Part shown: in pieces, positions 208 through 64,000 of the stretch
Layout: each line of letters begins with the position of its first letter
How positions within the stretch are numbered: the first letter of the stretch is position 1
Source: Asterochloris sp. CNOR1
Lineage: Eukaryota > Chlorophyta > Trebouxiophyceae > Trebouxiales > Trebouxiaceae
Direction: 5' to 3'
NCBI GenBank assembly: GCA_963969365.1
Contig: OZ017762.1
Location: 1,674,001 to 1,738,000 of the forward strand
DNA: 64,000 nucleotides
Notes under the pieces: model-generated
Seen by the model: only the letters and a program-made list of their open reading frames with translations
Database searches by the model: none
What the model was told of the DNA's origin: nothing
Made by a program: the position numbers and the translations under genes

Positions 208-3200
208 CTACAAGTTCTCATGCCAGCATTTCAAGTGCTGCGCTCCAGGAACAACATCAGCCCTGTTGACCAGAATGGCGCCGGCTGCTGAGCCCAGCTC
301 CTCCAGGAGGGAAGCACCGATGACCTGAGTGCCTTGCAAGAAGGCCTCTTCCTACTCACTCTCTGACTGCGTGGCCTGCTCAGGCCCTGCCTGCTTTGCA
401 CTGCAGTAACCAGCACAGTGATGAAGGGAGGCTCCTGAAGACTAGTGAGCCTTGCTCACCATGACCTCAGGTTGTGCTGACATCAGCCCATCCCCCACCA
501 GCCTCAGCTTGCAATCAGTATGGCAAGCTTGCCGCACCGCACCAGCATTTTCTGTGAGGCGTGTGGCAGAACCTTCGCACTGGCGATGCCACAATGTGTA
601 CCTTAGTTGCGCAGTCTGGGTGGGATGGACACTGCGTGACGGGGAGTCAGCTACATGCATATGTCTGCTTGATGCCCACACACAAACAGCCTGACTACTC
701 CAGCCAGAGTGTCCATGAGCCTGTATGGCAGGGATGCGGGCAGCGCACCACCTGCTACGTCAGTAGTGATGTACAATCCCCTGCAGCCCTGGCGCTGATC
801 CTCACCTCCAACTGCTGCTGCGCAACCAGCAGGCATCTGTTGCCTTCAACTCTCCTGGTGCAGACCGGCTCAGCACGTGGAGCACACCTCGACTCCCCTT
901 CAGGACAGTGACGCGGCCATCTCAAGCAGTGCCACATGTAAGGCATGCTGCCTGCTGCTGTGCGTCAGGGTCCGCGGCCCTCGGCCACCCACCTGTGCCA
1001 GCTGGGAGGGCACCTGGGTTGCAACTCTCCAGGATCGCTTTGATTAGGACGCCAGGGAGTGGAGGTGCCTCTCTCAGCAAAGCCATATCTGCCCTGGCCA
1101 GCATGCTGGGCGTCCTGAAACTCCTGATACAGAATGCCCACATCTGTGCTATCAAAGGCAAGGACGTCATCAGCTGTCAGCCCCTGCTGCATCAGGAGCT
1201 GACGCATCTCACCCCGAGTGGTTGCCCGTCTCAGCATCTGCAGCCGCAACAGTGTACAAGTCATCGGGACCGGCTTGGGCTGGCAGCACATCTCCGAGTC
1301 GTCATAGGGCCGCACTTTGGGTGTGGCGGCATATTAGATCACTGTCAGACTGTTTATACCCAGGTTGTGGCTCTCACCTCCTGCTGCTGCATCGTCGATA
1401 TGGCTGCTGTGTTAACACCCGTCCGTTTGGATGACGTTGACCCTGGCTGCCGACACCTAAGTCCCAGTCAGATCACCCTAGCTCGCCAAAGTGCCCTTTT
1501 TGATTGGCAAGATCTTCTCAGATAACCACAGCGAAGATTTGATGAACAGGAGCATGTCCTCTTGTGGAGCCTCTGCTGCTTGACTAGTACATGGTCTGCC
1601 GGCTGTAGCCGCCTGCTATGGGAGCTGCAGCCCTGCGCTCCGGCAGGCAGGCTCCAGCACCCTCCTCCAGGGCTGCGCAAGGGTCAGGCACCTGCAGGTG
1701 TCACACAACAGCAACAGCAATGTCACAGTTACAATTTCTGATGGTCTGACAAAAGTTGCATAGCAGCATGCGATTTGACAGCCCGCAGACTGCCAAGTCA
1801 GGCACAATGTAGCCACAGGAGACTTGCCACAATGGCATGCCAGCTGCTGCAGTGCCAGGCCATGCTGCGCCATGCTGCTTGGCTGAGCAGAGCCTGTGTG
1901 GGACTTTCCCGGATGACTTCGACATGTGCAGGACCTCAATTCCTGCCCTACATGCACACGCACTCAGTTCTGGCAGTGCAGGTTGTCCCACCTCCCGCCC
2001 TGGCAACTGTCCTAGAAGACCTGAAACAGCGATCCTCACAATCAGCCACATCTTGAGGTGGCATGCATGCTGGCGGTGGCCTTTCACAGCAGCAGGCTCA
2101 CCTTGTGGTGAAACTGGCGCCTGTCAACATCAAGAGCCCTCAAGCCGCTGCCTCTGCCCAAGCAGAAGCGCACTCACCATTGTGCTGTGCCCGCAGATGA
2201 ACCACCTCATTCAAAGGCGCTCTGAGACGTCCAGGATGCCATCTGTTGTGCATATAGAGCATGCCAGTCCAATCAGGCCCCATACGTAACACCACCAGAT
2301 CCTCAAGAGCTCTTGTCTCCGAGCCATGGGGCGCACTACAATGTTGCAGATGAAGGAAGCCCACCTCCTGGTTGAGCAGGCCCTGCACGACCTCCGCTCC
2401 CAGCCACATGGTGCTCATGCAGGGCGCAAATGTGCTGATCATTCAAGCTAGCTCACCTTAAACATGCTTAGCTGTAAGGCCTTACAGCTGAGCATGCGTC
2501 AAGAGATGTCCAGGACCGCAGGCCATTGCAGTGTGCACAGGCAGCGCAACACCAGCAGGAACCACCTCAGGCTGCAGCCGCTGCTCTGGGCATGGACCGC
2601 CCCGGACCCCGTCGATAATGACCTTACCTCCCGGTCAAGCAGGCGCTCTGAGACGTCCAGGACTTCTGCCCCCTGCTTGTCTGCCTGCACCAGGCGCTCC
2701 CTGCCTGTCCAGCGCACCTCAGTCACATACTCCTACACCAGCAGATCATTGCTCAGGACTGCAGTGGGCAGCCGTCACGTGCTCTTAGACTGCGAAAACA
2801 CAGCTTGCATGAGCAGCTGCAATCTGTCTCTGGTGCTGGTCACTCGAGAGCATGTGTTGGGTGCTCCTGCAGTGTCCAGTCATACTCAATGCCTACTTCA
2901 GCACATGGGGAGTACCTCTGTCAACAGTGGATGCACCAGTTCACCGCAGCTCAAAACAAGGGCCCAGCTGTGCAAAAGCACAGAAGAAGTGGGCAGCCTG
3001 CTCTGCTCCTCAAAAAGCTGGGTGCTGGCGCACTGCACACCGCAGCAAAGGAGGCTTTGAGTGCAAGACAGGCAGCGTGGGGGGCCACAAAGTCCTGCAA
3101 ACTGTGCCAAACCCCAATAAAGGCCCTGTCCTCGAACCTAATTCAGGCCTTGCCAGCCCTTTTTGCCTCTTTTGTAACTCAGTGGCAGCAGCCCAGCGTG

Positions 3201-6711: not shown

Positions 6712-9393
6712 TCACTGCATGAGCAGATCGTAGTGGTTGCCTGCAGCATAAGATGAGGACACCAGTCAGAAGAGGCAGGGGTGAGGCCAGCATCTGCGCT
6801 GAGCAGCAGCCTGGACTTGCATGAAGAGAGATCGCTGCCCCCCAGAGAGAACGCGTGTGACAAGCAGCAAAGCCGATACTGCATTCTCCCACATCAAGCG
6901 GGACGGCCATGATCGGGCAGTCCAGACCACCCCAGTGCCTGGGTGCAGAAGCTGGCTGGCGCACAAATTGCAGACAACTGCTGCAACTTTCACAATGAGG
7001 AAGGATACGCAACCACGATATCTGGCACTGAATAGATGGCTGCAATGGGCAAATGGACCAATTGCTCAGGCCAGGCTCCAGGCTGGCTGCCAGACTCACC
7101 ATTTCTGTACAGCAGGCGGACAGGTCGCCGGGGCTGCTTGCCCTTGCCGCCGCGAGCGTACTCCTCCCCAAAGGCGACATAGGGGCGCAGGCTATCGAGG
7201 CTGTTCCTGCAGCAGGAGACAGTATGTGTGTGCACTGACCTCTTCGGTGTTGTTTGACGCAAGAGGAAGCTGATGGCTTGTCGTTTTGCGTGTTTTGCAC
7301 TCTTTCTGTGTGCCTTGTCCTCACAATGACAAACATGCCAGCCAGTGAATGAGTTGGCGATGGTAAACACCAGTCACACCTCACGACGCCTCTTCATCCC
7401 CCAGCTTGTGCACAAAGATGGGGACCTCATGCCAACACATGAAACTTGGCAGCAGCTCAGACTGGCCGCAATGACCTGGGATGGCAGACAGGCGACTGCA
7501 TCCCCTCCCCCAACCTTTACCCCTTCACGGCCCGCTCTGGACACCAGATGAGCACGAGCATGGTGCACAATAATTGACTTACTGCGCTCTCTGGTCTTCC
7601 AATTTGTACACAAAGATGGGGACTTGGATCATCTGGCTTAGCACCAGCAACTCCGGCTGCCCGCCCCAGAAGTCGGGCTCCTTGAGCCGCTCACAGTACC
7701 TGCAAGCGGATAGCACCAGCTCTCAACTCAAGGCGGAAGGCTACACACACCAGAGAATTGAGTGCCTGGAGTCGCTGGCAGTGCCTGCAGGGCCCGACAA
7801 GCACACCAGGTCCAGACAGGGCGCAGCACACAACAATTGCCCTTCTCAGCAAGCCTGGCACTGCAAGGCTCCAAGCTGCGAGGAGTACCTGCAGGCAATC
7901 TGCTCATCAGCACAGAACCGTCACAAAAGGGACGTGGGTCCTCTTGCAGCTGCCAGTACCTGCAGGAAAGAAGCCCGCCAGGCACGCAGCACCAGCTATC
8001 ATCAAATATAGACGAACAAGTAGCAAAACCAGAGGGCAGTGCACAAGAGGGACATGGGTTGTTTTGCCACTGCCAGTGCCTGCAGGAACAAACCCGTCAG
8101 ACATGAAGCACCAATTATTGGCAAGAGCAGAGGGCAGCGCACTTGACGGACATGTATGCTGCTGCCGCTGCCAGGGCCTGCTGGGACAGAACCTGTCAGA
8201 CAAGTTGTACCAATTGTCATAACACGCAGAGGCCGGCACAAGACTGGGTCATGAGGACCTTGTGCCACTGGCCAGTGCCTGCAGGGCCCGGGCAGAAAGT
8301 ATGACAGCAAACAGCACCAGACCCCAGCAAAGGAACAAGCAGAGGGCAAGGCACAAGCGGGTCCTCGGTCCATCGCCACTGGCAGGCGCCTGCACAAGGC
8401 ACTATCAGCCGCAGCTCAGGAGAAATGGCAGAGCACAAGCAAGGCTCAGCATCAGGAGCTCTGGCTGACCACCCCGGAGATTCAGCACCTTGAGACCCTA
8501 CAGGGCACAGGCCAGCCAATTCAAATTTTCTCGAGGCTGGCCCTGAAGCAGGTGTGTGAGGCCTGAGTGACGTTATTCCAAAGAAGCTTAGACATAGTGA
8601 CTTTGGTATGTTCCCCAGCACCCCTTTGCTGCTGTGAAAGACAGGCTCTCTCACTTGGGCATGTCTCCCTCTGCCCCTGCTGCTATCACAGCCCCCTTGA
8701 ACTCCTTCTGGCGCTTCTGACTGCGGCACAGGGCGTCAAAGACAGCCATCCGCAGCAGGTCTGCAATGTCATAACCACATCAGATCAGCACGGTGCGGAT
8801 GAAAAGTGGGAAGCGTGAGAAGAGGGCATGAGCAGGCTGCCATGCCTCACATGTGCAGCCCGTGTAAAGGTAGAGCACAGTGCCTACCTGCTTCATGCTC
8901 CTCCTGCTCTGGTTGTAGATACTTCCCCTTATTCCGCATGAGACCCTTGGCCTGCGGAGCACAAGCATCCTGCATTAGCACACTGCGGCAAGTGCACACA
9001 GCACAGAGGTTCCCTCGGACAATGTTTGGCATGGTTGCTGAAGGGAGAAACCTGCTGTTCAACACGTGGAGTGTCTCGCCAAAATGGCAGCGTCAGGTAG
9101 ACTTCCACCCTGCACCAGCCTGTTCTGCACAATCCTCAAGCAACATTACAGTCTGATCCCCTATACGCACCAAGCAGCCTGGCAGTCTGCACACTCAGCA
9201 AGAAACATGACAGTCTGCTTGGCCAAGCGCAGCGCAGGTCACCCTTCCATGTGGGCAGACTTCCAGCCTTCACAGGCACAGGCAGTGACAGTGCACTCAC
9301 AATGGCACGAAACATGCAGCGCCCATCCCCCTTGATGGTGACGATGCGCAGCCTGAGCTGCTGAGGGTCTAGGGCAAGGTCTGCAGCCCTGCA
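6712..9393 (-). CDS. OTU-domain cysteine protease (deubiquitinase), OTU3-like
   Basis: Likely removes ubiquitin from substrates, as OTU cysteine proteases do; probably cytosolic. Exons that join in phase: 9301 to about 9393, 8888-8951, 8655-8760, 7583-7699, 7100-7206 and 6712-6740. The first contains GDGRCMFRAI, the OTU nucleophile motif with catalytic Asp and Cys. The second continues AKGLMRNKGKYLQ. The fourth holds the family motif PDFWGGQPELLVLSQ and the beta strand PIFVYKLEDQ. The fifth has RRPVRLLYRN. A 29-nt final exon supplies GNHYDLLMQ and stop, which carries the catalytic His. The order and spacing match plant OTU3-type proteins closely, as recalled. The start codon is not fixed: upstream sequence to about 9640 or 10140 may hold a further exon. 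Intron 8654-7700 carries a tandem repeat. Confidence 0.85.
7386..7436. repeat. Decayed copy of the OTU exon 7583-7699 in the next intron
   Basis: The segment around 7396-7420 (tgcacaaagatggggac) matches the exon stretch at about 7603-7622 (tacacaaagatggggac), with weaker similarity on both sides. It lies about 200 bp beyond the exon on its donor side, as a degraded exon-edge copy would. Confidence 0.55.
7880..8420. repeat. Intronic tandem repeat, unit about 100-120 bp
   Basis: Four to five diverged units share a core with a gccagtacctgcagg-like block, then a caccag/caccaattat block and an agagggcagtgcac block, followed by a gacatgggt or gtcctcggt stretch. The gccagtacctgcag core resembles the acceptor edge of the OTU exon at 7690-7705 (cacagtacctgcaag), so the array may have grown from that exon edge. 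It sits wholly inside one intron of the OTU gene. Confidence 0.6.
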
Positions 9394-11389: not shown

Positions 11390-11429
11390 TTATGCAATCA
11401 TCGCTGAGTTGCAGTCAAGCAGGACTTGG

Positions 11430-12300: not shown

Positions 12301-12479
12301 AGCATCTGCCTTGGTGCGCCGGCCTGGAAATACTAAATTCTTGCAACACCTGTGAGGGCCTCTTCTCAACCTGAGACTGCTATGTTGTTTGCATGCAGCC
12401 AGGTGGCACAGATGCTGGTGAGCTGATCATTGTGCATTTTCAAAAATGACGCCTAGAAGCTATGTGAGATGGCGTGGCT

Positions 12480-13760: not shown

Positions 13761-16700
13761 TCACTCCCGCAGCCCGATGCTGGTCCAAAGCCGCAGGAGC
13801 ACCGGCACCTCCCCTTGGCTCCTGCAGCGCATGTAAGAGGCAGCCTGTCACACTGATGGCTCACAGCACATTGGGAACTTGCAAGTGCAGCCATACACTC
13901 ATGAGCTGCTATTCGAGCACTGCTTGCAGCAAAGCCGTTGATGCAGCACATGCACCAAATCAGCTGGTCTATGCCACACAGCAGTGCGCCTGCAGCCACA
14001 GGGCATATTGCCTGCAGCCACAATGCAGACCCCACACAGCCAAATGGTTGCCACAGGGCAGCGCGCCTGCAGCCTGTGCACTGCCCCATCAAAGCCCACC
14101 TCAGCCCATGACAACCCACCTTCCGACACCCACAGCAGCGCCTGCTGGGGGAAGAGCTGATGCAAAGCAAGTCACCAGCAGCCAAGGGGCAGCGCAAACA
14201 CGAGCACAAGAGCACAGCCTCGCTGAGTTTCTTTTTCTCCCTACACTCTCAACTTGCTGTGCATCTGCACTTCCATGCACGGTGCAGCTGCACTTCCATG
14301 TCACCTTCAGCAATGCAGAGTTCACAACAAGACCCCCACAACGACACCCACCCCACAACGAGACCCCACAACGAGACTTCGCAACAAGACCCCAAAGACA
14401 CTGCTCACGGTGGTCCCTGGGCGGTAAGCTCCAGAGGCATGGCTCCTGCAGCCCGGCGGCAGTATGCGTGTACCCCAGACACAGCCCACTTTTCTCTCTA
14501 CATTCACATTGCCCCGTACAGCTGCACATGCATCTTCACCTGCAGCCATGCACAGTGCACGAGAACGCCCCGAGAACAACGCTGGACACATTGCTGGCTG
14601 TTGTCCTTGGCGCTGTGCAGCTCCAACAGATTGCACTGCCGGCTGTGTTCCCTGGCACTGTGCAGCTCCAACTTGAAGCCCCCTGTCGACTTTTGGGAGC
14701 ACTGCTCCCCCCGGTGCAGCTGCAGCGCCACATGACCTGTGGCAATGCGCATGTGACCCACACACTGTCACCCAGCAATGATCACCTTGCTTGGTGCAGC
14801 CGCGCAGCCATGTCCAGTGCCTGTCGGGTCTCTGCAGGCGTCCCCACGCAGTCCCAGGGCTTGCAGCCGCTGAGGCCTGCCAGCTGGCGCAGCAGACCCA
14901 GGTTGCCAGCATCAGCCAGCAGGTGCCTGTCCCCAAAGACTTGGCGGACCTATAACACAAGAGAGGTGTGATGTTCAGCTTTGTGCTCCTCCGATGATTC
15001 GCGCCTCATGGAAGGCCAGCATGTTGCCTACCGGCGGCCTCAAGTATGCCCAGCAGGGGCATGGTGCAAAAGGGAGCATGCGGGCAGCTTTTGCCTACTG
15101 GCAGCATGCAGGATGTGGGCTGCGTGCCATATCTGGCAGCATGCATTGCATCAGTAGCTTGCAGGGCAGCATCGTGCATTGAAAGGAGGGCCGTGTGGTG
15201 CAGCCCCTGCCAGGGAGGCAGCCTCACCGCAGCAGCAGCAGGGCTAGGCAGTGTGCCCCCAAGATGCAGACGGCGCAGAGCCTAATGGCCTGTGGCAGTC
15301 AAGACAGCATGGAGAGGCACCTTGCAGGTAGGCAGCCTGGCTGCAGCAGCTGCAGGCATGAGTGATTATGGGCCTCCCCCGAAAACAGGTCACTACAGAC
15401 AACACTCCAATTCACCTTCTCAATGGGGAGGAAGGCGCTCATCAGGACGCACACAAAGAGGCACTTGGCACACCGGCAACACCATTCTGAGCCTCCCTGC
15501 GACCAAGCAGGAGAGTGACTCAGCAAAGCTAACAGGCTTTCGTGCTGGAATAGGCTCGTGCTGCAGATAGTTGTCAACTATGCAGCTCACGCTCTGGCAG
15601 CTGGTGTGGTCAGGCCGCTGCTGTGAATGGAAGATCTGATAGAGCATGGAAGCCGCACGTCACGCACAGTGCAGGGAGGTTGTGCAGCTGTGCAAGTTGA
15701 CCCCTGTGGCGCAGCAACCGCTTCCTTGACGCAACAACAGGCCACCAATGAATCAACCATGCAGCACAGCTGACAATGCTTGAGCTGGATGCCGGACAGC
15801 AAGACCTTGGGTCAGCAGCAGGGCAACATCAAATTGCTCATCTTCAGTACAGCTGCGCTCAGCAAGACTAAGCAGGCACAGTTGCTGCTCACCTTGGGCT
15901 CATTGCAGGACAGGAACACTGGCAGGTATTTTGTGTGGCGGCAGAACACTCTGGCGATGTCCAGCTCCCACATGTTGCGCAGCACAGACACTGCAGTGCA
16001 GCAGATGGCGCTGAGACTGAGATGCAGGCAGTGCTCAGCTCTGCCCGCCTAAAGGAGGAGAGTGCAGCAGGCTGCTGCTCATCTAGCACCCTGCACCTGC
16101 TGGGCTTAGGGACAGAGCAGGGGATCCACAACCTAGGGCCCAACGCATTCAGGCAGCTGGCAGTCGGACCAATCACACAAACAGGCAGCAAAATAGCCAC
16201 AGTGCTGCATACCATGCAAGCCCTGCTGCGCATGAGCCACTGCAAACATGCAGTTTGTCAGACATTCTTCCGGTCAGTCTGATGTGAAGCTGCAGGAGCT
16301 TGCTCTCACTGTATTGGATGCCGAGCTGGAGCCGCTGCAGGTAGTTGTTGAACCCCTGCTCCCACTGAAACGACTTGTCGTACTGATGATTCACCATATG
16401 GCCTTCCCACAGCCTGCACGACAAAGTGACTCATCCTATGGCCCTGCCCAGCCTGCACAAGAATTGGCGGTTCACCATGTGGCCTTGCCACAGCCTGCAC
16501 CAGAACTGGTGGTTTACCACGTGGCCTTGCCACAGCCTGCACAGCCAAGACGGCGTCACCGCCTGCAGCTCTGGCAGCAGGTGCGCCTTCTGTGGTGCCC
16601 CAGCTGTGCACGCTGCACACAAGCTGCAGCTCGTGCCCTGGGCCGGCTTGTCAAAGTGATGGATGGCCATGTGTGGCCTTGCCACAGCCTGCACAAGCCA

Positions 16701-19700: not shown

Positions 19701-20103
19701 AGGGCCTGTGAACTCATGACGATGAGGGACAAGGCAGCAGAGCTGCTGAGAGACGTTGGGCGCATCACAGAGGGCTGTGCCGCAAGACGACTGCAGGGAC
19801 ATGTGACTGCGGCATGACATCAAGCATCACACATCCCAACCTGAGCTGCATGCCGGTGGCCCTGCAGGCACTGCAAAGCCTGCGTTGGTGCTGCAATATT
19901 GCTCACAGGCCGGAGCAGGTCGCACCTGTGGTGGGTGACGGAAGAAGGGTCGAGGCAGGTGCAGGCGGGACGCGAAGCTGTGCAGCACATGCTCAGAGGC
20001 GGCATCCCTCAGGCTGAAGGTGAACAGGGCGCAGCTGCTGGCAGGGTGCAGGCTCCAGGCATCGTAGCTGAGCAGCAGCTGGTCCTGGGGCTGCACCTCA
20101 TCC
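13761..20103 (-). CDS. MurL-like protein (UDP-MurNAc-L-Ala-L-Glu epimerase family)
   Basis: Bacterial MurL uses ATP to convert the L-Glu of UDP-MurNAc-L-Ala-L-Glu to D-Glu. Exons: 19926-20103, 19391-19484, 18997-19095, 18404-18773, 18240-18306, 17934-18069, 17356-17481, 16310-16413, 15893-15990, 15416-15496, 14786-14949 and 13761-13821. From 19095 down, all joins agree in phase. Family signatures in order: LVPLGGGKDSLTVFELL (PP-loop ATP site), GHAWMALVACI, AVGNERSANEGN, LWEGHMVNHQYDKSFQWE, SVLRNMWELDIARVF, FLSCNEPK, SEWCCRCAKCLFVC and LSGCKPWDCVGTPAETRQAL. The protein ends LRLWTSIGLRE. The upstream exon with TAEQLAFWQRTWTGITGEFF fits the family N-terminal part, and HMVFCVGLVSLHWFWLGH probably matches its SYYK region, but the join at 19391/19095 does not fit, so one small exon is probably missing. 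The start codon is not found. A role in plastid peptidoglycan is only inference; its true substrate is unknown. Confidence 0.8.
16430..16760. repeat. Tandem copies of a MurL-like exon edge in the intron
   Basis: The exon edge at about 16385-16420 (gattcaccatatggccttcccacagcc) recurs in three or four copies at about 16430-16550 (ttcaccatgtggccttgccacagcctgcac) and weaker ones near 16660-16740. Each copy includes the gcctgcac acceptor side. A second simpler array rich in ctgcacacaagc follows to about 16960. All lie in intron 16414-17355. Confidence 0.65.
19261..19300. repeat. Perfect 15-bp inverted repeat (hairpin)
   Basis: Arms 19261-19275 (tggcagagcctgacc) and 19286-19300 are exact reverse complements around a 10-base loop. 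It lies in an intron of the MurL-like gene. No other copy was noticed in the window. Confidence 0.8.
19602..19757. repeat. Two tandem 77-bp units
   Basis: The block starting gcgtacatgatctagcaga near 19602 recurs 77 bp later, near 19679, with few changes, followed by a shared gacaaggcagcagagctgctga block. It lies in the intron between the first two visible exons of the MurL-like gene. Confidence 0.7.
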
Positions 20104-20760
20104 CTGCAGAATACATAAAGGCTGCTCAGGGTGCAGGCTCCAGGCGTCGTAGCTGAGCAGGAGCTGGTCCTGAGGCTGCACCTCATCCCTGCAAAGTATA
20201 TAAAGGCTGCTCAGGTTGCAGGCTCCAGGCACCGTAGCTGAACAGCAGCTGGTCCTGAGGCTGCACCTCATCCCTGCAAAGTATGTAAAGGCTGCTCAGG
20301 TTGCAGGCTCTAGGCGTCGTAGCGGAACAGCAGCTGGTCCTGAGGCTGCTCCCTGCAGAATTCCATGAAGGCTGCTCAGTTTTCAGGCTCCAGGCACCGT
20401 AGCTGAACAGCAGCTGGTCCTGAGGCTGCACCTGATCCCTGCAAGAATCAATATTGCTGCTCAAGTGAGCAAGTGACAAGCTGGATGGAATACATGCTGG
20501 TCCTGAGGCTGCACCTCATCCCTGCAAAGACCTGAGGAGGCTGCTCAAGCGAGGGGTCGAGGAGTCGAGGACTTGTAGCAGAGCAGCAGGAAGAATAGAG
20601 AGAGGGCTGTCCCTGAGGCTGCACCGCACCCCTGCAGCAGGTGAATAGGCTGCTCGAGTCTGCGCACAAGCCCCTGATCGACTGTGTCCCCAGGTGATGC
20701 AAAATCCGTCCCTGAGGGTGCACCTCACTCCTGCAGAAGATGAGAAGGCTGCTTGACTCA
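20104..20760. repeat. Ladder of copies of the first visible MurL-like exon edge
   Basis: The acceptor and first bases of exon 19926-20103 (minus strand GDEVQPQDQLLLSYDAW) recur about every 84 bp: near 20137, 20222, 20306 and 20385, then more diverged near 20497, 20606 and 20703. Each copy keeps the ctgcag acceptor-like block and the gaggtgcagcctcaggac coding block. Similarity falls with distance from the real exon. The minus strand of the near copies still reads DEVQPQDQLLFSYGAW. Confidence 0.8.
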
Positions 20761-39965: not shown

Positions 39966-39997
<32 letters not shown>

Positions 39998-52018: not shown

Positions 52019-54569
52019 ATGAATGGCTTCCAGGGCAAGACCCAGGAAGGGGAGGTGAGCATCACAATCCTTGCATGCAAGCCTCATGCCCCAACGGCAA
52101 TCTGCCCCTGCCTCACTGCCATGGCTGCCTCACTGTAGATTGAGTACCAGGCGCCCACAGAGCTGTGGCAGCAGGTGGAGTCTGGTGAGGGCGGGAAGGA
52201 AAACAACTGGTACAGTAGAGCGGTGCAGCACTGGGACAAACAGGAAGCTAGCGTGGAGGGAGTGCTGGGGGGACACGGCCACGTCTCAGCGGCAGATATT
52301 GCCCAAAGCAAGCGCTTCCTTGGCAAGGTGTGTTCATGGGCATGGCAACTGCTGTTCGAGAGGTGCTGGCTATGCACCGCACTGTGCCCTGCCCAGCCTG
52401 CAATGGCAGGTCACACTGTCTGCTAACCCCTCCTAGGCAGAGCAGCATTCCCTTGGTCAGGTGCACCAGCAGGGGTGGTGCGCAGTGCAGTTGTGCATGC
52501 TCAAAGGCTACCGAACACAAGCAAGGGCATGCTGCCAGCGCGATGGACAGGCAGAGCTTCAAACAGCAGCGATTGCACCAAGCAAGCGTGAGTTTGGAGC
52601 AAGGTGCGATTAAGCTGCTGGCTGGCAATATGCGCTGATGATGCAGCTGTTGCCGCCTGGCCATGTCTCAGAGCTCCACACTGCCTAGACCCACTGACTC
52701 CTCAGCAGGGTGTGTCTCAAGAGGAGCCATCTTCTGGCCATCCCAGCGCGTCCCCCTGAAGCTACACAGTGCCTGGGGACGAACTGCTGGCAGGCCGTTC
52801 CAGCTCAGCTGCAGTGTTACTTGCAGCCCTTGGTCTCATGCCGCACTGCATGCAGAGTTGCTCACCACATGGCGCAGTGCATTCCTGCCTGCAGGCCATT
52901 TGTTGCTTGTCCTGGTTTGCACGCAAAGGACAGGCATACGTGGTTTCAGAGTTGTTCTGAAGGTCTGCCTCCAGGAACGGGCAATGCGCCTGGATGCAGG
53001 ATGCAGTGCAGCGCCTCAGTCAGAGAGCTGCCAGATGCTCCACCCTACAGGACCGACCCTGCCTGCAGGCCTTTGCAGCCCCTGGAAGAAGGCAGAATGC
53101 AGGGGGCAGCTGGAGGCTGCATGCAGCGCCGCCCAGCTGATGCTGCTGCCTGCACGTTTGCGCAAGAGGCATGCTCCACATCTGCAGCCCAGCTTCAAAA
53201 GACCGAGCTGATTGCAGCGGGCTGCAATCACAAGGCGGGCAGGGCTAGCACATCTGGGCTCCCTGTGTGCAGGTGTATGCAGCCCAGCTGAAGGCAGCGC
53301 AGACTTCTGGTGCCAAGCTGGTGGCGGCCGACTGCGGTGCGGGGGTGGGCAGGGTCTCAGAGAACCTGCTCCTGCACACCTTTGATGAGGTGGACCTCAT
53401 CGAGCCCAGCCAACACCTGCTGGCCAGTGCCCAGCAGCGGCTGAGCAGCAGCGGGCGCAAGCAGAGTGACGGGCCCTGGCCAGCAGACCACGTGGCGCGC
53501 AACTTCTGGCAGCTGGGGCTGCAGCAGTGGACGCCTGAGGCTGGCAGGTGGGCAAGTGGTTCTATAGTGCTGGCTGCAATGTGGCTGAGCAGTGCTGATG
53601 GACTGACCTAAGGGCACTGGGGCTGCACCAGTGGACTCTGAGGGTGGCAACTGGGGACTGTACATCACAGTCGGGGCCACTTCCAGAGGGAATTGCAAAG
53701 CCACTTAGTGGCTATGGCTGGCTGTCTAAGGGTGGGGTCATGCTGCCGAGGATGTTATGGGCTTTCATCAAAGCAACCATGTGGGCCCCAACCTCCAGCA
53801 GCTGCGGCTGCACCGAGGCCGCCTGAGGCGGGCAGATCAGGGCTGCCTTGTGTATTGTCACCACAGCTTTGCTGTCTGCCCATGCAAGGGCAAGCGCCAG
53901 CGTAGCTACTTGTTCTGTCTGGGCATCATTGGTCCCTGTGGCGTTTGCCACATCTGGCTGGATGCTTGACAGGGGTGTATCAGCCTTACAGCAATACCTC
54001 CTAAGCTGTTCTCCACATGTCCTGCAGGTATGACGTGATTTGGGTGCAGTGGGCGCTCCTGTATCTAACTGATGGTGAGCCCCGCTGTAATGGTATCCTG
54101 CATGTGCCAGCATGCGAGTGAGGCCAAGGTGCCTGCTGCACTGTATTCAGCTGTGGTAAGCTCAGTCTGGCATGAGCTGCTGCTGGTTCCTCGCGCGCAA
54201 AATCGTGGTCCTTTGAGGTCGCTGTGGACAAAGGCACTGCCTGTGTGCTCTGCGTGTGCCTCTCAGCCGGGCTCATGGATGCCCTGTTCAACAGGTATTC
54301 TGGTATGGTCTGCAGATGATGCCACCGCGTTCTTCCAGCGATGCAAGAAGGGCCTTAAGCCTGGTGGCCTGGTGGTTGTCAAAGAAAACATCTGCTCTTC
54401 AGGGTTCATCCATGATAAAGAAGATTCCAGCCTGACTCGTTCGCACCAGTACATGCTGGAGCTGTTCAAGTCAGCTGGCATGACCCTAGTAAGCAGTGCC
54501 CAGCAGAGAAACTTCCCCAAAGATCTATTCCAGGTGCATATGTATGCCCTCAAGCCGCAAGGGCCGTGA
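52019..54569 (+). CDS. NTM1: Alpha-N-terminal protein methyltransferase (NTM1/METTL11 type)
   Basis: Transfers methyl groups from AdoMet to the exposed alpha-amino group of proteins with an N-terminal X-Pro-Lys motif after Met removal; ribosomal proteins and RCC1 are known targets in other eukaryotes. Exons 52019-52054, 52139-52327, 53273-53547, 54028-54074 and 54316-54569 join in phase to give 266 residues. The ATG at 52019 starts MNGFQGKTQEGEIEYQAPTE. Family motifs: WYSRAVQHWDKQEASVEGVL, LGGHGHVSAADIAQSKRFL, then VAADCGAGVGRVSENLLL (AdoMet site), VDLIEPSQHLL, YDVIWVQWALLYLTD and GLKPGGLVVVKENICSSG, ending in FQVHMYALKPQ. Length and motif order are normal for the family. It faces the NSF gene tail to tail with 262 bp between the stops. 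Confidence 0.93.
53617..53650. repeat. Decayed copy of the NTM1 exon 53273-53547 end
   Basis: ctggggctgcaccagtggac followed by tctgagggtggcaactgggg copies the exon end and donor at 53514-53552 (ctggggctgcagcagtggac, then gcctgaggctggcaggtggg). It lies about 100 bp into the following intron; the donor GT has become lost. A possible third, weaker copy lies near 53795-53830. Confidence 0.75.
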
Positions 54570-54831: not shown

Positions 54832-57800
54832 CTAGACAGATTCGTTCGTGGCGCCTGATACATCTCTGATAACCTGGCTCCACTTAGCAATTGGGATAGG
54901 GGTACCCTCAGGCAGACCTTGCCGAGCCATGTCAATCAGCAGGAGCAGCCTCTTCATGGACATGGAGGTGTCAGTCAGGGAAGCAACTGCCATGTCCATC
55001 TGCAGCCATGAAAAACTTGCCAATTCAACTGGCAGTGATACTGACTGCTAGGGCAGAAATGCGGTTGTGTAGGTGTTGTGGAGAAACGCTGCCTTCGTCC
55101 ATGAGGCAGTGCAGCAGGCAGCCAATGCTGATGCAATTCAAAGCCCTTCCTGGAAACAGCCAGTCTCCTGCTGTGCACGGGCACCTCCCAGCAAACACTG
55201 CTGTAGCGACCTGCCCAACTTTGCTGCACGTTATACCACTGGCCCGACCAGCAAACACCGCACAGTGCAACTGCCCATGTTGGGTCCCCTGGATGAGGGA
55301 AGTTGTGAAGCCCAGCTCAGCTGCCTTGCTCGCCAGGTCTCCCCCCGAAAGCAGCACGAGTCCCACCTCCTCCAGCACATTAACTCTCCAGGGCATGGGA
55401 CACCTCTGTGATCTCCTTTTGAAGCATGAACCCAGGGATAGCAGCACCAGCATGCACCATGTGCCTCCAGGAGTAAGGCTCAGAGCCCCTCAGTGCAGGG
55501 CACCAGACCATACCGCACATGACCTGCTCTCTGCGACGCAGAGGCCCCAAGGCAAGGAGGACCCTTTGTCTGCCTGCTCCCGCTCCGTGGACATGTTAGA
55601 GCACACAAAGACCTGCATCCGCACTCACCATGTGCACCCAGGCGTGAAGCACCCAAGCCCTGACCTGAGTGCAGAGCTCCAAGATGAGCTGTTTAGCACT
55701 TACCTCCTGCGGCGCGAAGGCCCCCAGGGCATGGAAGACCTTTTTGATCTCCTGTTCCCGCAGCTTGGGCACGTTGAGCACCACGTTGAAGCTGGTGGTG
55801 ATCTCCATGTCCTCCATGACGGATGCCACGCTGGTGGTCCCCAGCACCAGCAGCTTGCGCCCCTTGGGGGGCTGCTTCTTCAGCAGCACCAGCAGGGTCT
55901 GCAGGATGCCGTTGCTGAAGCGGGGCCCGATGGAGACGTACTCGAGCAGGCGCTCTATGTCATCGAGGACGACGATGGACAGAGTGCTCTGCAGCGCGGC
56001 AGGGGCGGCCCGTCACGAGGGGGAAAGCAGGAACCCCAGCCCAACACAGGGAGGCTTGTGGGTTGTCCATCCACTGCTGCACCATCAGCAGGGTCGGCAG
56101 GACGCCCTTGCTGGGAGTCGGCGGCAACTGAGTCATGCTCAACTGTGCCAGCAAGGGTGTTTGTCCTACTTCATGTAGACTTCATATACAGCGCCACTGA
56201 GGCATGCACCCACCCTGTATGCGTCATCAAAAACCTTGGCAATCTGGCTGCTCTTGGAGGCTTCTGAGTAGCCAACCATGGTCTCTGCGCTGATGACCTT
56301 CACAAAGGGGAAGTCTGACTCAATGCCCACTGTGGCTGCGAGGGCGGTCTTCCCTGTGCCGGGAGGGCCCTCGAGTAGGCAGCTGATCAGAGGCGTCTGC
56401 TCGCTGGTGCGGACCTGCAGGGCGGCGATACAGGCAAACCAGGTTCTGCAGCTGGTCTGGGACTGCAGGGGGGTTGACACAGGCAAGTCCAGGTTGAACA
56501 GCTGGTACGGACCTGCAGGGGCGCAAAGACGGCAGATTGCCGCCCCTGCTGGCTCCCTGCCGAGAGCGTGCCTGGTGAGAAGCACAGCACAGAGATCAGA
56601 GGAACCGACATGAAAGCTGCTAGCATGCTGCACGCTGACACGGACCTGCAGGGGGCAGGAACAGGCGGGTCTAGGTTATGCAACTGGCTTGGTGCCTAGT
56701 TGCAGGACTGCCTGTCTGTTGCCTGAGTTACTGTTTGCCCTGCCGTTGTGGCCGCACTGAGGATCTGGCAGCTCTCATTGCAGGTGCCAGTGGTGGCTCT
56801 TGGCAAGACCTGGCTACAGGGCTGCCGACTGCATTTCCTGTAGGGGACAGGCATAGTATGACCCCAGCAACAGACCTGTTGATAGTCAACTAGCCTGTCA
56901 GTGCCCACCTATTAATAAAAAAAACCAACACTCAGCACAAAGCCTGGCACAGAAGGCTTTTGTGCCTGTACTCACACAGGCAACAGGCGCTCACGGCTGC
57001 TCTCTGATGTCATTGCCAGGCACTAAAGCAAGTTCTGAAGCCCCTGAAACACATCTGCAGCTGGCCTTGAGCAGCTCGCCAGCTGCATGAGCTGCGCTGG
57101 TTCCCAATGCGCTGCAATGTCCTGGAACACCCCATCGCAAGTAAGAAAGCATCTCACCTGCTGCACCAGCACGCTATAAGAGGAGTGGAGGTGCCTGCCA
57201 CACTTTACACATGCGGCTTGCTTCCTGAGGTGCTTGCTGGCTGCAAGTGCCATGCCCGCCGCCAAACATGTCCTGCAGCACACCCTTGCTCACAGCAAAG
57301 CCCTGTATGCAGCCCCTTCCGGCCCCACAGATGATTACGATTGGCATCTCACCTGCTCCAACAGTCCTGCAGATGGACTCAAGTTGCCGGAAATGCTCCT
57401 CGCAGTCAGTCGAATACCTGCAGCTGCACCCCTTCAGGAGCATGCCTGCTGCACAATTTGCGCCTGTATGAAAATTTGACATACCGCAAATCCACATGAC
57501 AGGCAATCTGGCCCAGGATTGGAGGCAGCATCTCACCTGCTCCACCAGCGTCCGGCAAGTGGACTGGAGGTGCCTGAAGTGCTCCCCGCAATTGATGATT
57601 CCGTTGAGCCGGTGCTGCTCCAGGGTCTCTGTGACTGCCCCAAAGGCTGGCTTCACCTCAGACAGAGCGCGGTCAAAGTCCTGCATGGCCACCTGCAAGC
57701 AGAAAGAAGGCGTTGTGACCCTGGTGTCTTGTGTGGGATGAGCACAGGAAGACTTCATCTCTGATAGCGCACAGTCAAAGCCCTGCACGGCCACTTGCAG

Positions 57801-60800
57801 GACTCAGGAGCGATCAGCTCATGCTGTGTTTATGATGCGCGCATACACAGGCTTCAATTTTGCTGACACGTGGTCAGATGCTTCAGATGGCCGTATGCAG
57901 CACACAGGGCAGCTGTTGGTGGGGTTCTGCAAAAACAAGCCGATGCAATTCTTGGTCACCATCAGGGGGGCCCCTTGCCTTGATCACAGCTGCAAGCGTA
58001 GGCTGAGCTGAGCAGCTGTTGATGCTTGCGCACCTTGAGGTTGGTCTCATCGATGGGCTTGGACAGATCGTTCACATCCACCTGCCTGTTCAGCGCAAAG
58101 GAGGTCGCCGACTTGACCAACCCCTCAATCTCAGCTCCACTGAAGTTCTTAGTCCGCTCTGCAGCCCAACCAAGCTGCTGTCATGTCTCAGGCAAGGGGT
58201 GCTGTGCAGGCAGTGCAGAGGCCATCATACCTGGCATTTGCTGCTGGGCAGCAGGCAGGCGGCATGTGTGCACAGCTGCAGCACAGCAGCAGCGTACTGG
58301 CTGGAGCCAGCACGTGAGAGTTCACCTGCGAGGGACCAAAGGTCCACATCCCTTGCCAGGAAGGAGTTGGCCTCCATCTTCCCTGTGTGGATCTGCAGCG
58401 CAGCCAGCGGCACTTCAGGGGAGCACCACTCCTGCCAACTTTGCGCGCTGTTGTGGCACAAGCAGCTGCATCAGACTTGCAGCTGCATCAAAGTTGCAGC
58501 TGCAGCATGTGCTGTGCCTGCGCCATGCCTCTGCTCGACTGCAGGCCCTCACGTGCCACCGTTGCCAGGGCCACTCTGAGACTGCAGAGCTCATGTTTAG
58601 GCCGCTGAACACAAAAGCTGGAGCTGTGCAGGCACTATAGTGCCCTGATGTAGCATGGATATCAGAGAAGGCTCCACAGCTAAAAGTATTTTAGTGTTGG
58701 CGCGGTCTGCGCAGATGATGCCGTCTGAGCAGCTCAGATGCTGCACACGGCAACCAGGCTGCATGTGGAGAGGTTCAGGCAACGGTGCTTGCCTTCAGGA
58801 TTTGGAGGCGCCCCTTGTCATCTGGCAGGCCAATCTCCACCTGCACCTCTAGTCTGCCGGGCCGCAGCAGGGCCTCATCCTGCAGTGGCAACACGGCGCA
58901 CGGTTGTCACCATGTTTGCTATTACATGCTCCTGCAACAGCATGGCATGCGCAACAAGGCGGGCTTCTCCTGCATCATCAAAATGGTCTGCAAACGTGGG
59001 ACAAAAAGGCTCTTCCCATGAGACGCTTCAGACGCGTGCCAACGTAGTGCGCCATCCTGCAGCGTCAATACAGGTCCTGCATGCTGTCACCTGCAATACT
59101 TGAGCTTTCCGAACACCTTTTCATCATGCTGGATTATCAGGCCGCTGTGCTGAGCAGCAGCCTCTTGCTTTGACGCCAGTGGCATGATGCCAACTCTTCT
59201 CTGCCATTGCATCGCAAAAATATGTGGGCTAAACCCAAACAAAGTGGGGATGCATGATGCTGTATAGGAGTCATCAAACTCACTCTTCACATGATGACAG
59301 CAGCCATACTGACCAGCATGTCCTTCCTGTTGGTCATGCCAATAAGAAGGATGTTGTTGAGGGCGTCCACACCATCAATCTTGGTGAGCAGCTGGTTGAC
59401 GACGGTGTCGTGCACGCCTGCAGGGCACAGCAGACACGAGAATCTTTGGAGGGCTTTGTTGGAAGTGAGCAGAGATCTGTGTGGTAGTATCCATGTCAGC
59501 GTCAGTTTCACGTGTCTGTGTCATGCATGGACGCATGCAGGCCAAGCCAGGTGCAGCACAGTAACTGCAGCTTGAGTCAGGTTGTCCGCAGCTGGCTGAC
59601 AGCTGCATCCTGCACACCAGCAGAGCATGACAGGAGCTTGTGTCACCAGCCACCTGACACACTTGTGCAAGCTTTTCCAGATGGCATCGCCCTCAAAAAT
59701 GACGATGACATGCAGGAAAGCGCCTTTGGCACTTGAGACGCTTGTGCATGCTGCAAGCAGTGTCTCTGTTGAGACAGCCACATGGGACCCCTCGCTGCAC
59801 TGCATGCCATCATCAGACCTTCTTCATAACTTGCACATGGTGTACAGCCTGACGAAGCAACACCTACAGAGTGACCCCCGCAGTGCATGCAGGCCGCTCA
59901 CAGTGCTGGCTACCCTCGCAGCAACAACACAACATCACTGGGGCGGCAGTGCATGCACCGTCACCTGAGCCGTCGCGAACGCTCCCGCGAGACTTGCAGA
60001 TGGCGTCGATCTCATCAAAGATGATGACGTGCAGCTCAGCTGCGTCGCCATTGCGCTGCTGGTCAGCCTCCGCCTCCTCGAACAGCTTCCGCACATTCTC
60101 CTCACTGGCACCGACATACCTGCAGAACAGCATGACAGTTTGTGAGGCGATGAACGCTGGCGCTGTCAGCAGAGCTATGGGGTGCACGCTGGGCCCACAC
60201 CCATAGCAAGCCTGTGCACTGGCTGCAAGAGGAGCAGGTGCAAGGCTACAGGCAGCAGTGAGTGCACACAACATTGTCAGCAGTGGATGCACCATAGGAC
60301 GCTCAGCTACGGCCAGCCACTTCAGCAGTGCCAGTCACTTGCATGCTTGGGAGCAGTGGGGCACGCAGCACAGCTGGGTGTAGGCCTGAGGGACAGCCAG
60401 CAGGGTTGGCAGCTCACTTGTTCAGTATCTCGGGGCCATTGACCACTTTGGGGTCCTTGCCGTTCAGCATCTTGCCAATCTGGCGGGCAATCAGGGTCTT
60501 GCCTGTGCCTGGGGGGCCAAAGAGCAGCACACCCTGCAGGCATGGGCAGCAGCCAGTGGCACCATACAACTGCAAGACCAAAGCAGGCAGACACAGCCGG
60601 ACACAGCACAGCTTGACACAAGCATGCGGGTGCAAGCCTTGGAATGCTCGGTAGACTGGTGCGGCATCATACACTGTCACTTGTGACCAGACAGGCCTGC
60701 CACAGCTTTGTGGGGAATGGTGGGCTGAGTCAGGGGACCCTGGGTCAGCCAATGAGCACAAGTGCCCACCTAGACAGATTTGGTGCCCTGTTGCGCCACT

Positions 60801-63800
60801 ATAGCTGGTTGGCAGCACAATATGCAGCTACAGTGCACCTAGAGTGTCACTTGAATGCGCCATGACATGCCTGGCACACCATGGCAGCTGGTGGGAATGC
60901 CCACGTGCAGCAGTGGTGCACCTAGGCCTGCAACCAAGGCCATCTTGACATGCCTGATACCCAGCAGCACTCATCACCTCACACAGAGCTGCACCGCATG
61001 CAGAGTGCATCAAGAGCTTTTGCCTTGACATGTCTGACGCCCAGACACTCCATGATAGCTGGTGAGCAGACGTATCTGTAGCTATAGTGCACTGAAGGCA
61101 TCATTGAGACCCACCTTGACATGCCTGATGCCCAGCCGCTCCACCACAGCTGGGGGGAACACCCGCGAGGCAAAGGCCCGCCGAAAGATCTGCTCAAACT
61201 GGATGTCCAGCCCCCCGATGCCCAGCTTCTCGAAGTTGAACTCCTTGTGCTTGAACAGCTGGGGAGCCACTATGCTGCGTTGGCCTGTGACCTTCAAGCC
61301 TGACCCTGCAGGCAGGCAGGCAGTGCCTCGATTGTGAGCAGCATGAGCTTCTTGGAGGAGTGCAGTCAGCACCACATCGCTCAGGCAGAGGCTGGCCTGC
61401 AGGATTTCAGTATATGGTACCATCTTGGAGTAGTGTAATCAGCACCAGAGCGCACGGGCAAAGGCTGGCCTGCTTTTGTTCTATCAGTATCTAACAACCC
61501 AGCAGCTGCTTCAGCCCTGGCAGACCCACCTGCTTGTGTCTCAAACACCCAGGCTGTGTCAGGCACCAGCTGGCCACGGGTGACCGGCACCTGTTCCTGG
61601 AGTTTGTCCAGCACCAGCACGCTCAGGATGGTCAGCAGGAAGTTGGTACCCTGGTACTCGAAGGTCACCACCTGCTGCCCCGCAAACACCTGCAAATATG
61701 GGAAGGGTCTACAACATGGTCACAACGGCATAGCCTGATCAGTGGAAGGTCATCATCTGCAGCCATGGGCAGCGTTGCAAGTTGCAGCCGCAACAGTGAG
61801 GCTTGTACCCCATGGGTCACCACCTGATGCCCTGCACAACTACATGCGCTCCAACCCATGCCCCTCCTATCAAGAGACAATGCGTGCGCCCCCACGTAGC
61901 TTGTGGATGGGCATGGCTGATTGGTCACACTGCGAAGGCATGGCTGCCTTGTCTCTGCAAGGCCACCCATGCTGAGCTCGATCAGGGCACTGAATTTTCT
62001 CTGCATGTGCACGATCAGGTGTACAATGTGCTCACCCAGCGACCCTTTCCCGCCAGCATCCTTAGTGCCCCTCTTGCTACATACTTGTGTCCCACACCTT
62101 CTCTCTCTCTCTCTCTCTCAGCCCCCTGTTCTCCTGCAGGCTGGCCACTGCAAGCAGCTATCAATTGACTGATGCCCATGACTCACCTGACCTCCGAATC
62201 TGCTCTGCAGGTGCGCGATCAGCTGCTGCGCATCAATCTCCACGGCTGCCGCTTTAACAGCGCGCCTGGTGGTGATGAACTCCACACTGGCTGACACCAT
62301 GACGGCAGCGAAGCCCTCGCGGGGTATCTGGAAGGGTGAGGCTGGAACAGCATCCCCGGCTGATATGCGAAGGTACTGCAGGTAACATGGGCCAAAGTGA
62401 GCGGATTCTCGGCAGAAGCTTGCTGCTGCCAGGCCATCATGGCAGACGCGACAAAGAGCTGCTAGAAGGAGCTGCAGGGGTGAGGCGCATGATTGTGAGG
62501 GCAAAGGGAGGGCAACATTGTAGTGACAATGGCATCACTGCACTGCAACAGATTGGGCACAGCAACCTGCAGGCAGCATTGTGAGGCAGCGCGGCGCAGG
62601 GGCCGCCGCTTGAGGGAGCAGACTGCAGGCGCCAAGCACATGACTCTAGCAGCTGGAGCTCGTGAGGGCATGACAACAAAGCTATGCTGTGGCCAGAACA
62701 CAACAGACATGCCTGCAGTGCAGTACTTGACAGAGAAGTATGCTGCAGGCGGTCTGCACATGTCTGGAACAGCTGTTTGAGGTGAGAGGATGACCGCAAG
62801 TAATGACGTGGATGCCTGTGGTGCATTACATCAATATGAAACATGCTGCAGGCACCAGGAACATTCCCAAGAGGCTAGACTGCAGGCTCAACATGATGCA
62901 GGTCAGGCAGCATGAGCCAAGTCGAGAGGTTGGTGCCAGGCAGCTGTGGCTGTGACGGCACGCCACTGCAGACTGCCCAGTCAGCTCACCCAGCGTGCTC
63001 ACTTGGCCAGACCAGACCTGACCAGGCCTTTCAGAGACGCTGATAGCTAGCCGACTGGCAGCAGGCCACTATGCCCAGCCAGCAAGCAAACCCTTTCAAC
63101 TTATCTTTTGCTGCATAAACTCAGCGCTCACAGCTTGCGGTGGAGCCCGCGCAGCTCACCTTGCGCTGCACAGAGTTCAGCCCCACACATGCTGGCTCAA
63201 TGGAGGGGTCAGCGCGGACTGTGAACACTCTGCAGAACAGACATCCGTGCTGAGAGGCAGCTTGAGATGTTGCTTGAAGCCAGCATGCTCTGCGATGGAG
63301 TACGAGGGTGCACTGCGACATTCTGCAACGTGCAAGGCAGGGCTCAGAGGCAGCATCACGGTCTGTGAGGGCCAAGAGTACACCAGCAGTGAGGGCGGGG
63401 GTTACATGTCAGACAGCTGCAGTCAGCTTCGCAGAGGTGGGACGCACCCGCCAGCAACCTCTGCATAGCCTGTGCTGAGAAGGCGGTCCCCTGGAGCCAC
63501 AAAGGCTTGATTGGTCTTGGCCAGGTCCTGCAGAGCAAGGAGCAAGCTGAGGTTCATCATTGCACAACTGGGAGATTGCTGCAAGCCACCCTTGCCTGTG
63601 AAGGGCAGTTCACTACCCTATAGGACATGGCTGCCAGCGCTGACAGCGGAAATCAAATGAAGCGGCCCCTCCTTTGTCCTTGATTGATGTGTACCAGGCT
63701 GGGTTGCGATCGGAGTCGAAGTTAAAGACTCACTGTCTGCTCGGAGCTTGAGCAAGGCAGGCCACAGCAAGTCAATTGTCAGATGGGCTCCATTGTGAAT

Positions 63801-64000
63801 AACTTGGCCAGTGATGCCGGTCTGATGCTGGCATCTTGACTCAAAGTTGTTCGTGCCAAACATATTCTGGGCTTCCTGTGAAGTTCGTAGGAAGGACATT
63901 TTCAAACTTAGAGATGTCGGCAGCGGCTGGCACTGATGGATGATGTATGGCCATACGGTTGCTGCAGGGCATCCTCAGCTGCAGCAGCATCTCACCTGCT
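54832..64000 (-). CDS. NSF: N-ethylmaleimide-sensitive fusion protein (NSF, AAA+ ATPase), partial
   Basis: Hexameric AAA+ ATPase that uses ATP to take apart SNARE complexes with alpha-SNAP. Exons that join in phase: 63448-63527, 63160-63229, 62187-62375, 61530-61689, 61115-61305, 60418-60533, 59965-60119, 59314-59417, 58793-58879, 58326-58392, 58034-58158, 57537-57692, 56214-56414, 55704-55988 and 54832-54999. N domain: [53 protein letters not shown]1: [88 protein letters not shown]2: [49 protein letters not shown]. It ends [20 protein letters not shown] and stops at 54832. Sequence matches plant NSF throughout. The first exon lies beyond 64000: a gtgaga donor at 63995-63990 follows agcag at the window edge. 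The intron after 58793 has a GC donor. Confidence 0.95.
56430..56660. repeat. Repeated cggacctgcaggg blocks next to the NSF D2 exon
   Basis: The acceptor edge of exon 56214-56414 (tgcggacctgcagggcggcgatacaggcaaaccaggtt) is echoed near 56455-56495 (gggactgcaggggggttgacacaggcaagtccaggtt), 56505-56530 and 56636-56680. The intron-side part is copied more clearly than the coding part. Confidence 0.65.
57155..57404. repeat. Two copies of the NSF D2-start exon end
   Basis: Exon end 57531-57595 (catctcacctgctccaccag, then ggactggaggtgcctgaagtgctccccgca) is copied near 57344-57404 (catctcacctgctccaacag, then ggactcaagttgccggaaatgctcctcgca) and near 57155-57215 (catctcacctgctgcaccag, then gagtggaggtgcctgcc). 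Donor sequence is kept in both copies. Spacing is about 190 bp. Confidence 0.8.
57749..57801. repeat. Copy of the NSF D2-start exon beginning
   Basis: gacttcatctctgatagcgcacagtcaaagccctgcacggccacttgcag copies the exon's first 50 bp at 57646-57696, which encode [14 protein letters not shown]. The minus strand still reads [15 protein letters not shown]. It lies about 100 bp upstream in the intron, acceptor included, so this exon has copies on both sides. Confidence 0.8.
59586..59720. repeat. Copies of two NSF exon edges within one intron
   Basis: cagctggctgacagctgcat...cctgcacaccagcagagcatgacaggag near 59589-59636 copies the acceptor edge of exon 59314-59417. Further on, atcgccctcaaaaatgacgatgacatgcagg near 59684-59714 copies the DEIDAIC region of exon 59965-60119 (gtcgatctcatcaaagatgatgacgtgcagc). 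Both flanking exons have thus left copies in the intron between them. Confidence 0.65.
60860..61062. repeat. Ladder of three copies of the NSF exon 61115 end
   Basis: The exon end at 61113-61153 (ccttgacatgcctgatgcccagccgctcc, then acagctgg) recurs at 61022-61062, 60942-60970 and 60860-60895, spaced 80-91 bp. The nearest copy is the best (ccttgacatgtctgacgcccagacactcc, then atagctgg), the farthest the worst. Confidence 0.8.
61720..61845. repeat. Two copies of an NSF N-domain exon start
   Basis: gaaggtcatcatctgcagccatggg near 61746-61770 and gggtcaccacctgatgccctgcacaac near 61815-61841 copy gaaggtcaccacctgctgccccgcaaac at 61661-61688, which encodes [10 protein letters not shown]. Both lie in the upstream intron. 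Confidence 0.6.
62101..62119. repeat. CT dinucleotide microsatellite
   Basis: Nine to ten CT units in an NSF intron, ahead of a C-rich stretch. Confidence 0.95.

Follow-up and report, generated by a model that had tools for sequence, protein, structure and literature searches.

Tandem duplication of sequence that carries splice signals is an old proposal for how introns are gained, resting on few proven cases in so far as the sources outlined here describe them. In the model of Rogers (1989), as it is given in outline in Ma et al. 2016 (PMC4974935), tandem genomic duplication of an exonic AGGT or of an intron-exon structure produces a new intron, and a survey of 12 Drosophila genomes reports, in its outline, seven candidate introns formed by tandem duplication (PMC2891723). 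Here, we describe a related pattern in a 64-kb stretch of the genome of the green alga Asterochloris sp. CNOR1 (contig OZ017762.1, C17:1674001–1738000; hereafter the window), in which about a third of the tested exon edges have a decayed copy within the intron that they face. The present case shares its elements with the intron-gain proposal and goes beyond it in the extension of existing introns.

As far as these outlines go, the Rogers model and the present case share tandem duplication of splice-signal sequence inside genes, with one copy becoming intronic; the model creates a new intron, whereas here mostly an existing intron is extended and a decoy edge is left behind. The Drosophila introns, as summarised, likewise stem from tandemly duplicated exonic sequence of which one copy was intronised, but they number seven candidates, compared with a decayed copy at roughly every third tested edge of a single window. 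The duplications of Pace et al. 2009 (PMC2671141), as sketched there, resemble ours in being short and local, in lying near their source, in including splice sites and in their declining intensity; that set leaves out copies closer than 50 bp, and it contains one exon inserted in opposite orientation, whereas here both orientation and side are fixed. A search by title and by the opening of abstracts found no description of such copies in green algae, which is not proof of their absence.

We aligned 72 edges of 42 exons in homology-supported genes with the intron that each edge faces, and compared the scores with those against 60 length-matched controls from other introns, against the reverse complement and against the intron at the other side of the exon. 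With its own facing intron, an edge outscored all 60 controls in 25 of the 72 cases, where about 1.2 are expected; both donor edges (15/36) and acceptor edges (10/36) were copied. At a score of at least 36, copies were found in the own intron for 23/72 edges, in inverted orientation for 0/72 and in the far-side intron for 0/60; lowering the threshold to 28 gave 26/72, 1/72 and 1/60, respectively. Similarly, among 106 non-overlapping pairs with one exonic arm, based on predicted and curated exons, the arm crossed the facing edge in 74 and the opposite edge in 3, whereas random placement predicts 19±4 and 8.6±2.8, respectively. Tandem duplication across a junction yields copies on one side and in one orientation only, a geometry that is hard to obtain from templated insertion or from mobile elements.

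We also searched the window by gapped local self-alignment for direct repeats at offsets of 20–3000 (main cut-off, score of at least 40), using as controls inverted repeats in the same offset range, six bands of larger direct offsets and three dinucleotide shuffles. The window held 68 direct and 0 inverted repeats, with 0–1 repeats in each far-direct band and 0–2 in the shuffles, and the offsets peaked at 90–120 bp. By location, 42 of these pairs were exon-intron, 10 intron-intron, 9 intergenic or unassigned, 6 exon-exon and 1 mixed. The wider genome (56.4 Mb in 21 contigs) was sampled by 18 stretches of 10 kb, one each from 18 contigs, and all 18 contained direct repeats, at least two per stretch (146 direct, 0 inverted and 1 in shuffles; the same score), while a 50-kb control from E. 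coli gave 1 direct and 0 inverted. At a score of at least 38, 246 pairs were collected, of which 115 had one exonic arm, 21 had two and 110 had none; duplication thus extends beyond exon edges. Short paired duplications, the ‘doublets’ of Thomas et al., are reportedly a general feature of genomes in the same way, being short and close together.

Taken together, we consider it likely that these copies result from a general process of local tandem duplication, in which exon edges are prominent because exon-anchored pairs decay more slowly. Under this model, local tandem duplications of about 40–300 bp would arise throughout the genome. One that spans a single exon-intron junction would leave the gene intact: the copy adjoining the exon body would stay in use, whereas the outer one, now intronic and carrying a decoy splice site, would decay neutrally. 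A pair with one exonic arm would diverge about half as fast as a pair with two intronic arms, and would therefore be recognisable for longer. Each gapped pair would have begun as a whole-unit tandem duplication, probably with microhomology of a few bases. Consistent with duplication of a whole unit that includes its intron part, similarity in the copies drops faster at the intron side of the junction than at the exon side, in agreement with simulation.

In simulations of whole-unit duplication at an age t of 0.3 substitutions per site and an indel-to-substitution ratio of.25, 31% of exon-spanning duplications were detected, compared with 3% of those lying wholly in intron. The same settings gave a gap of more than 60 bp in 63% of pairs (65% observed), an identity of.77 (.79 observed) and an intron extent of 4 bp (9 bp observed). 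Simulations with uniform ages produced arms that were too long and gaps that were too small, and only older ages approached the observed values. A flank-residual test, which had first seemed contrary to whole-unit duplication, was discarded because it gave values of about zero for simulated true duplications too.

The copies themselves look neutral by codon position and frame, and their decay appears mostly neutral. Mismatches to the source exon are nearly flat across the three codon positions (.22/.21/.28), which fits an unconstrained copy of a constrained exon, and the shift from real to decoy site is evenly spread modulo 3 (26/28/28). The donor GT is kept in 20/43 copies and the acceptor AG in 27/37; the decoy equals or outscores the real site in 10/44 donor and 9/38 acceptor copies. 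We also looked for a repeat-induced C-to-T signature and rejected it: at codon positions 1 and 2, C>T changes were most frequent before G (27/122), with no excess before A (16/225), a CpG-like spectrum without a CpA excess.

The scarcity of near-identical copies suggests that the process is mostly old. Among pairs at offsets of 50–600, only 2/105 exon-intron and 8/82 non-exonic ones are at least 90% identical, where constant production would yield 22–29 and 19–26, respectively, and the duplication rates fitted for the older period exceed later ones several-fold. A constant process combined with loss should not leave young pairs scarce, since each old copy must have passed through a young stage; either production has dropped or copies diverge fast at first. 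Most copies would date from an older and more active period, at roughly 0.15–0.35 substitutions per site. Of 19 pairs with at least 90% identity, all 8 with arms of at least 38 bp abut or overlap, with no gap above 9 bp; in four of these the overlap measures 3–8 bp, suggesting that the tandem duplications arose at short homologies. The first-pass annotation had proposed that copies usually start within about 200 bp of their source, which holds for 65 of the 106 exon-intron pairs, and that they often form ladders and fade with distance, which is not supported: at least two copies occur at only 14/89 source edges, and the nearer copy was more similar in 9 steps and less similar in 8. Over all pairs, similarity decreases weakly with distance (rho −0.31, n=106, p=0.001); within edges no such ordering was found.

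Some observations weigh against tandem duplication of whole units followed by neutral decay. Unlike young tandem duplications, 65% of the exon-intron pairs have a gap of more than 60 bp, and 9 of the 11 pairs that are at least 90% identical with arms of 20–33 bp are spaced by at least 20 bp, two of them beyond 2 kb; these may or may not be well-preserved remnants of older copies. The median arm is 49 bp, against 68 bp simulated at t 0.3 and a ratio of.25. Within aligned arms, the measured indel ratio is.09–.10 (39 exon-nonexon and 32 non-exonic pairs), below.25, and a ratio of.1 fits worse, with 43% of gaps above 60 bp, an arm of 95 and an identity of.72 at t 0.3, and with 72%, 80 and.72, respectively, at t 0.4. 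The measured value is probably an underestimate, since local alignments break off where an indel occurs; one long pair gave about.15 (16 gaps, 109 substitutions). Exon-intron outnumber intron-intron pairs by 23:8 in homology-supported genes. Finally, the TGCA of the acceptor matches its source at.87–.89, while adjoining exon bases match at about.6–.9, mostly.6–.8 (38 acceptor copies from the window and the genome stretches; a second tally was inflated by alignment ends). This retention of TGCA(G) is not predicted by simple neutral decay.

The 23:8 excess bears most directly on a different account, in which duplications arise or are retained at exon junctions more often than detection alone would explain, perhaps through breaks provoked there by structures formed in splicing or transcription. 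A model with no junction preference gives ratios of 0.5–0.9 up to t 0.2 and, with an indel ratio of.1, near the measured indel ratio, of 0.9–1.6 at t 0.25–0.3 (1.6 at t 0.3); with.25, the same ages give 1.9–6, and t 0.35 with.1 gives 2.9. With copies mostly of such ages and with frequent indels, no junction preference is therefore required; failing that, a moderate one is. The scarcity of near-identical pairs suggests such old ages, the measured indel ratio is probably too low, and the counts are of pairs, not of events. Exon-nonexon pairs also exceed random placement (115 against 60±7), a comparison that ignores the half-speed decay of such pairs. The prominence of edges is thus at least partly due to the constraint on the source exon, with unconstrained copies, at old ages, and we regard an additional junction preference as a serious but less probable possibility. 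Templated insertion during break repair, in which strand annealing copies a short segment into a break that lies 50–300 bp from it, as in primates, would account for the spacing of most exon-intron pairs, for arms mostly of 40–80 bp and for the proximity of source and copy, a feature of repair-type events that these local direct repeats share; Pace et al. 2009 (PMC2671141) describe, in outline, proximal spaced duplications that reach 619 bp and take in splice sites, and whose intensity fell over time. Judging from the mechanism, such insertions would have no reason to respect side or orientation, yet at a score of at least 36 far-side and inverted copies were missing where facing ones were common; near-identical pairs with the longer arms all abut or overlap, and old tandem duplication nears the observed spacing in simulation. 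Templated insertion is therefore, in our view, improbable as the main source.

That the copies are functional, as alternative or poison exons or as decoys kept by selection, would agree with the number of retained and well-scoring decoy sites, and with the better conservation of TGCAG than of most adjoining exon bases in acceptor copies. The flat codon-position profile and the even frame shifts speak against it; GT is intact in 21/37 aligned donor copies, no better than neighbouring dinucleotides. The motif CTGCAG, with which many acceptors end, occurs 225 times in the window, about eleven times the number expected from base composition (~20), and coincidental matches or duplication breaks at CTGCAG may account for the surplus in acceptors, although selection on decoy acceptors would also be compatible with this one point. 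Overall, functional copies seem very unlikely. Repeats within the introns of many genes could also bring to mind mobile introner-like elements or other dispersed repeats, but a whole-genome search with three source regions that have copies returned self matches only (such a search may overlook frequent words), edges resemble their own intron much more than other introns, and no inverted copies were seen at a score of at least 40 in the window and the 18 stretches. This account was already contradicted by these data, and we give it practically no weight.

Local tandem duplication with slower decay of exon-anchored pairs also bears on intron length. The 17 introns that contain an edge copy have a median length of 581 bp, compared with 349 bp for the 19 that do not (p=0.001); growth by duplication would give this difference, but longer introns also leave more room for a copy to be detected. 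The first-pass annotation had read the copies as tandem duplication across junctions that lengthens introns steadily as a general habit of the genome. The facing geometry, the decayed copies, the decoy sites and the genome-wide sample bear out the duplication, although it is not limited to junctions; its presence in 18/18 stretches bears out the breadth, while near-identical copies are too rare for a steady or continuing process. We put forward as a tentative and rather doubtful extension that short tandem duplications once swept through the whole genome in a wave that has since mostly subsided, that they struck junctions disproportionately often, and that they lengthened perhaps at least a third of introns from their exon edges, leaving a stock of decoys that splicing ignores by their position. 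A search for introns born outright by duplication found donor context at the acceptor of the same intron in 4/93 predicted introns (score of at least 34), against 0.2% of controls, and at least two of these rest on doubtful predicted exons (42812–42840 and 45870–45956).

A trace at 25/72 tested edges means that the rate, age, size and sidedness of such duplications can be estimated within one genome with the constrained exon as reference, so that exons become a fixed standard for counting and dating a type of mutation that is normally hard to see. The same loci also set genuine splice sites beside naturally occurring decoys, in some cases with no difference across the 9-base donor (NSF edge 57537 and its copies at offsets 184 and 379), and so offer a probe of spliceosome choice.

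Gene models came from a purpose-built gene finder, seeded with NSF and NTM1 exons picked by eye, which yielded coherent genes; 99 predicted exons were retained in the window after manual curation. Single exon boundaries are those of the gene finder, and some introns analysed may contain real exons left out. Exons in the 18 genome stretches are unvalidated predictions, used only with a score of at least 8 and a length of at least 30. The NSF protein aligns with solved NSF (PDB) over residues 28–693 (E 1.5e-194), with one exon join made by hand because the boundary placed at 59318 was wrong by one or two bases. Pfam supports the kinase, the M17 aminopeptidase (PF00883, PF02789) and the NTM1-type methyltransferase (PF05891), OTU (PF02338) and AP2 (PF00847) genes; it gave no match for the unrecognised, MurL-like and SYLF-like genes, whose names are those of the first-pass annotation, and nothing in two frames of bases 1–3001. 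A search of the same genome for the AAA family did not have the window among the matches listed, and was not used. We judged the predicted exons 42812–42840 and 45870–45956 to be decoy copies mistaken for exons. By sequence and homology, NSF exon 58793–58879 seems to finish in a GC donor (AAG|GCAAGC) at 58792–58793.

The claim that copies occur in nearly all genes was borne out, each of the nine named genes having at least two predicted or curated exon edges with a copy (Table 1). Of the 21 positions at which copies had been proposed, 18 coincide with an arm of a detected pair (score of at least 38) or miss it by no more than 2 bp, and the one at 7386 lies 15 bp from an arm. The copy proposed at 61720 lies 247 bp from a listed pair and is supported only by exon edge 61689, which reaches a score of 40 when aligned with its own intron (32 for one particular stretch). 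At 42620, the nearest arm is 57 bp off and direct alignment scores 18, leaving no support at that exact place.

Table 1. Exon edges, intron copies and tandem arrays in the window (window positions; offsets in bp).
Feature	Position	Strand	Support
End and donor of NSF exon 57537–57692, source of two intron copies	57522..57596	-	alignments
First decayed copy of NSF edge 57537, 84% identical, offset 184; decoy donor CAG|GTGAGA intact	57338..57410	-	
Second decayed copy of NSF edge 57537, 82% identical, offset 379; decoy donor CAG|GTGAGA intact	57142..57203	-	
Donor edge of NSF exon 61115–61305; three copy alignments at offsets 91, 171 and 254	60763..61173	-	
Acceptor edge of NSF exon 57537–57692; upstream copy, offset 102	57641..57908	-	score 62, all 60 controls beaten
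Acceptor edge of NSF exon 56214–56414; upstream acceptor copies at offsets 48 and 231	56391..56698	-	
Donor edge of NSF exon 55704–55988; long downstream copy, offset 171	55438..55787	-	
Acceptor edge of NSF exon 59318–59417; upstream copy, offset 200	59382..59633	-	
Donor-side stretch of NSF exon 59965–60119; downstream copy, offset 319, arm short of edge	59669..60069	-	edge score 30, all 60 controls beaten
Donor edge of NTM1-like exon 53273–53547; copies at offsets 104 (87%) and 289 (80%)	53481..53841	+	PF05891
NTM1-like acceptor edge 53273; upstream copy, offset 204	53051..53334	+	
Donor edge of kinase exon 46052–46152; copies in repeat-rich intron 45315–46051	45732..46108	-	score 76
Donor edge of kinase exon 47161–47256; copy, offset 104	47050..47200	-	
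Acceptor edge of kinase exon 47677–47835; upstream copy, offset 240	47771..48093	-	
Edge of predicted kinase exon 44019–44171; copy, offset 43	44136..44240	-	
Donor edge of SYLF-like predicted exon 42996–43177; tandem copy at 141-bp offset	42677..43023	-	
Predicted acceptor edge 40612; abutting 108-bp tandem copy, decoy acceptor intact	40570..40805	-	
Predicted acceptor edge 38646; upstream copy, offset 118	38605..38776	-	
Donor edge of aminopeptidase exon 36237–36350; 20 identical bases including the donor, 40 bp off	36183..36254	-	PF00883, PF02789
Donor-side stretch of aminopeptidase exon 32920–33091; copy, offset 107, arm short of edge	32838..32992	-	
Donor edge of aminopeptidase exon 32270–32396; copy, offset 73	32174..32307	-	
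AP2 acceptor edge 27408; upstream copy, offset 76, 88%	27323..27454	+	PF00847
Predicted acceptor edge 24160 of the AP2 gene; upstream copy, offset 93	24059..24218	+	
Tandem array, 85-bp unit, 4.8 copies, overlapping the end of predicted MurL-like exon 19926–20103	19559..20762	-	
Tandem array, ~42-bp unit, at the edge of predicted MurL-like exon 16310–16413	16387..16994	-	
Donor-side stretch of OTU exon 7583–7699; copy, offset 198	7395..7629	-	PF02338
Stretch of predicted exon 2628–2732; 22-base identical copy, offset 426	2209..2668	-	

The window, whose GC content ranges from 52 to 62% in 2-kb steps, additionally contains a larger tandem repeat at 10271–12930, of 846 bp and 86% identical over aligned bases, with an offset of 1141 and a third partial copy. 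It holds predicted short exons encoding FGKSWADLPAPVHRYIGSIVGGEKTAEG-like peptides, for which Pfam gave no match. No relatives were found in a search of viral contigs, and megablast of the repeat at 10.3–12.2 kb against plasmids gave no match; a 47-bp piece of it also matches contig C15. Elsewhere in the assembly, contigs C19 and C20 are small (43,319 and 110,056 bases) beside eighteen megabase-sized ones, and our guess is that they are possibly organelle genomes.

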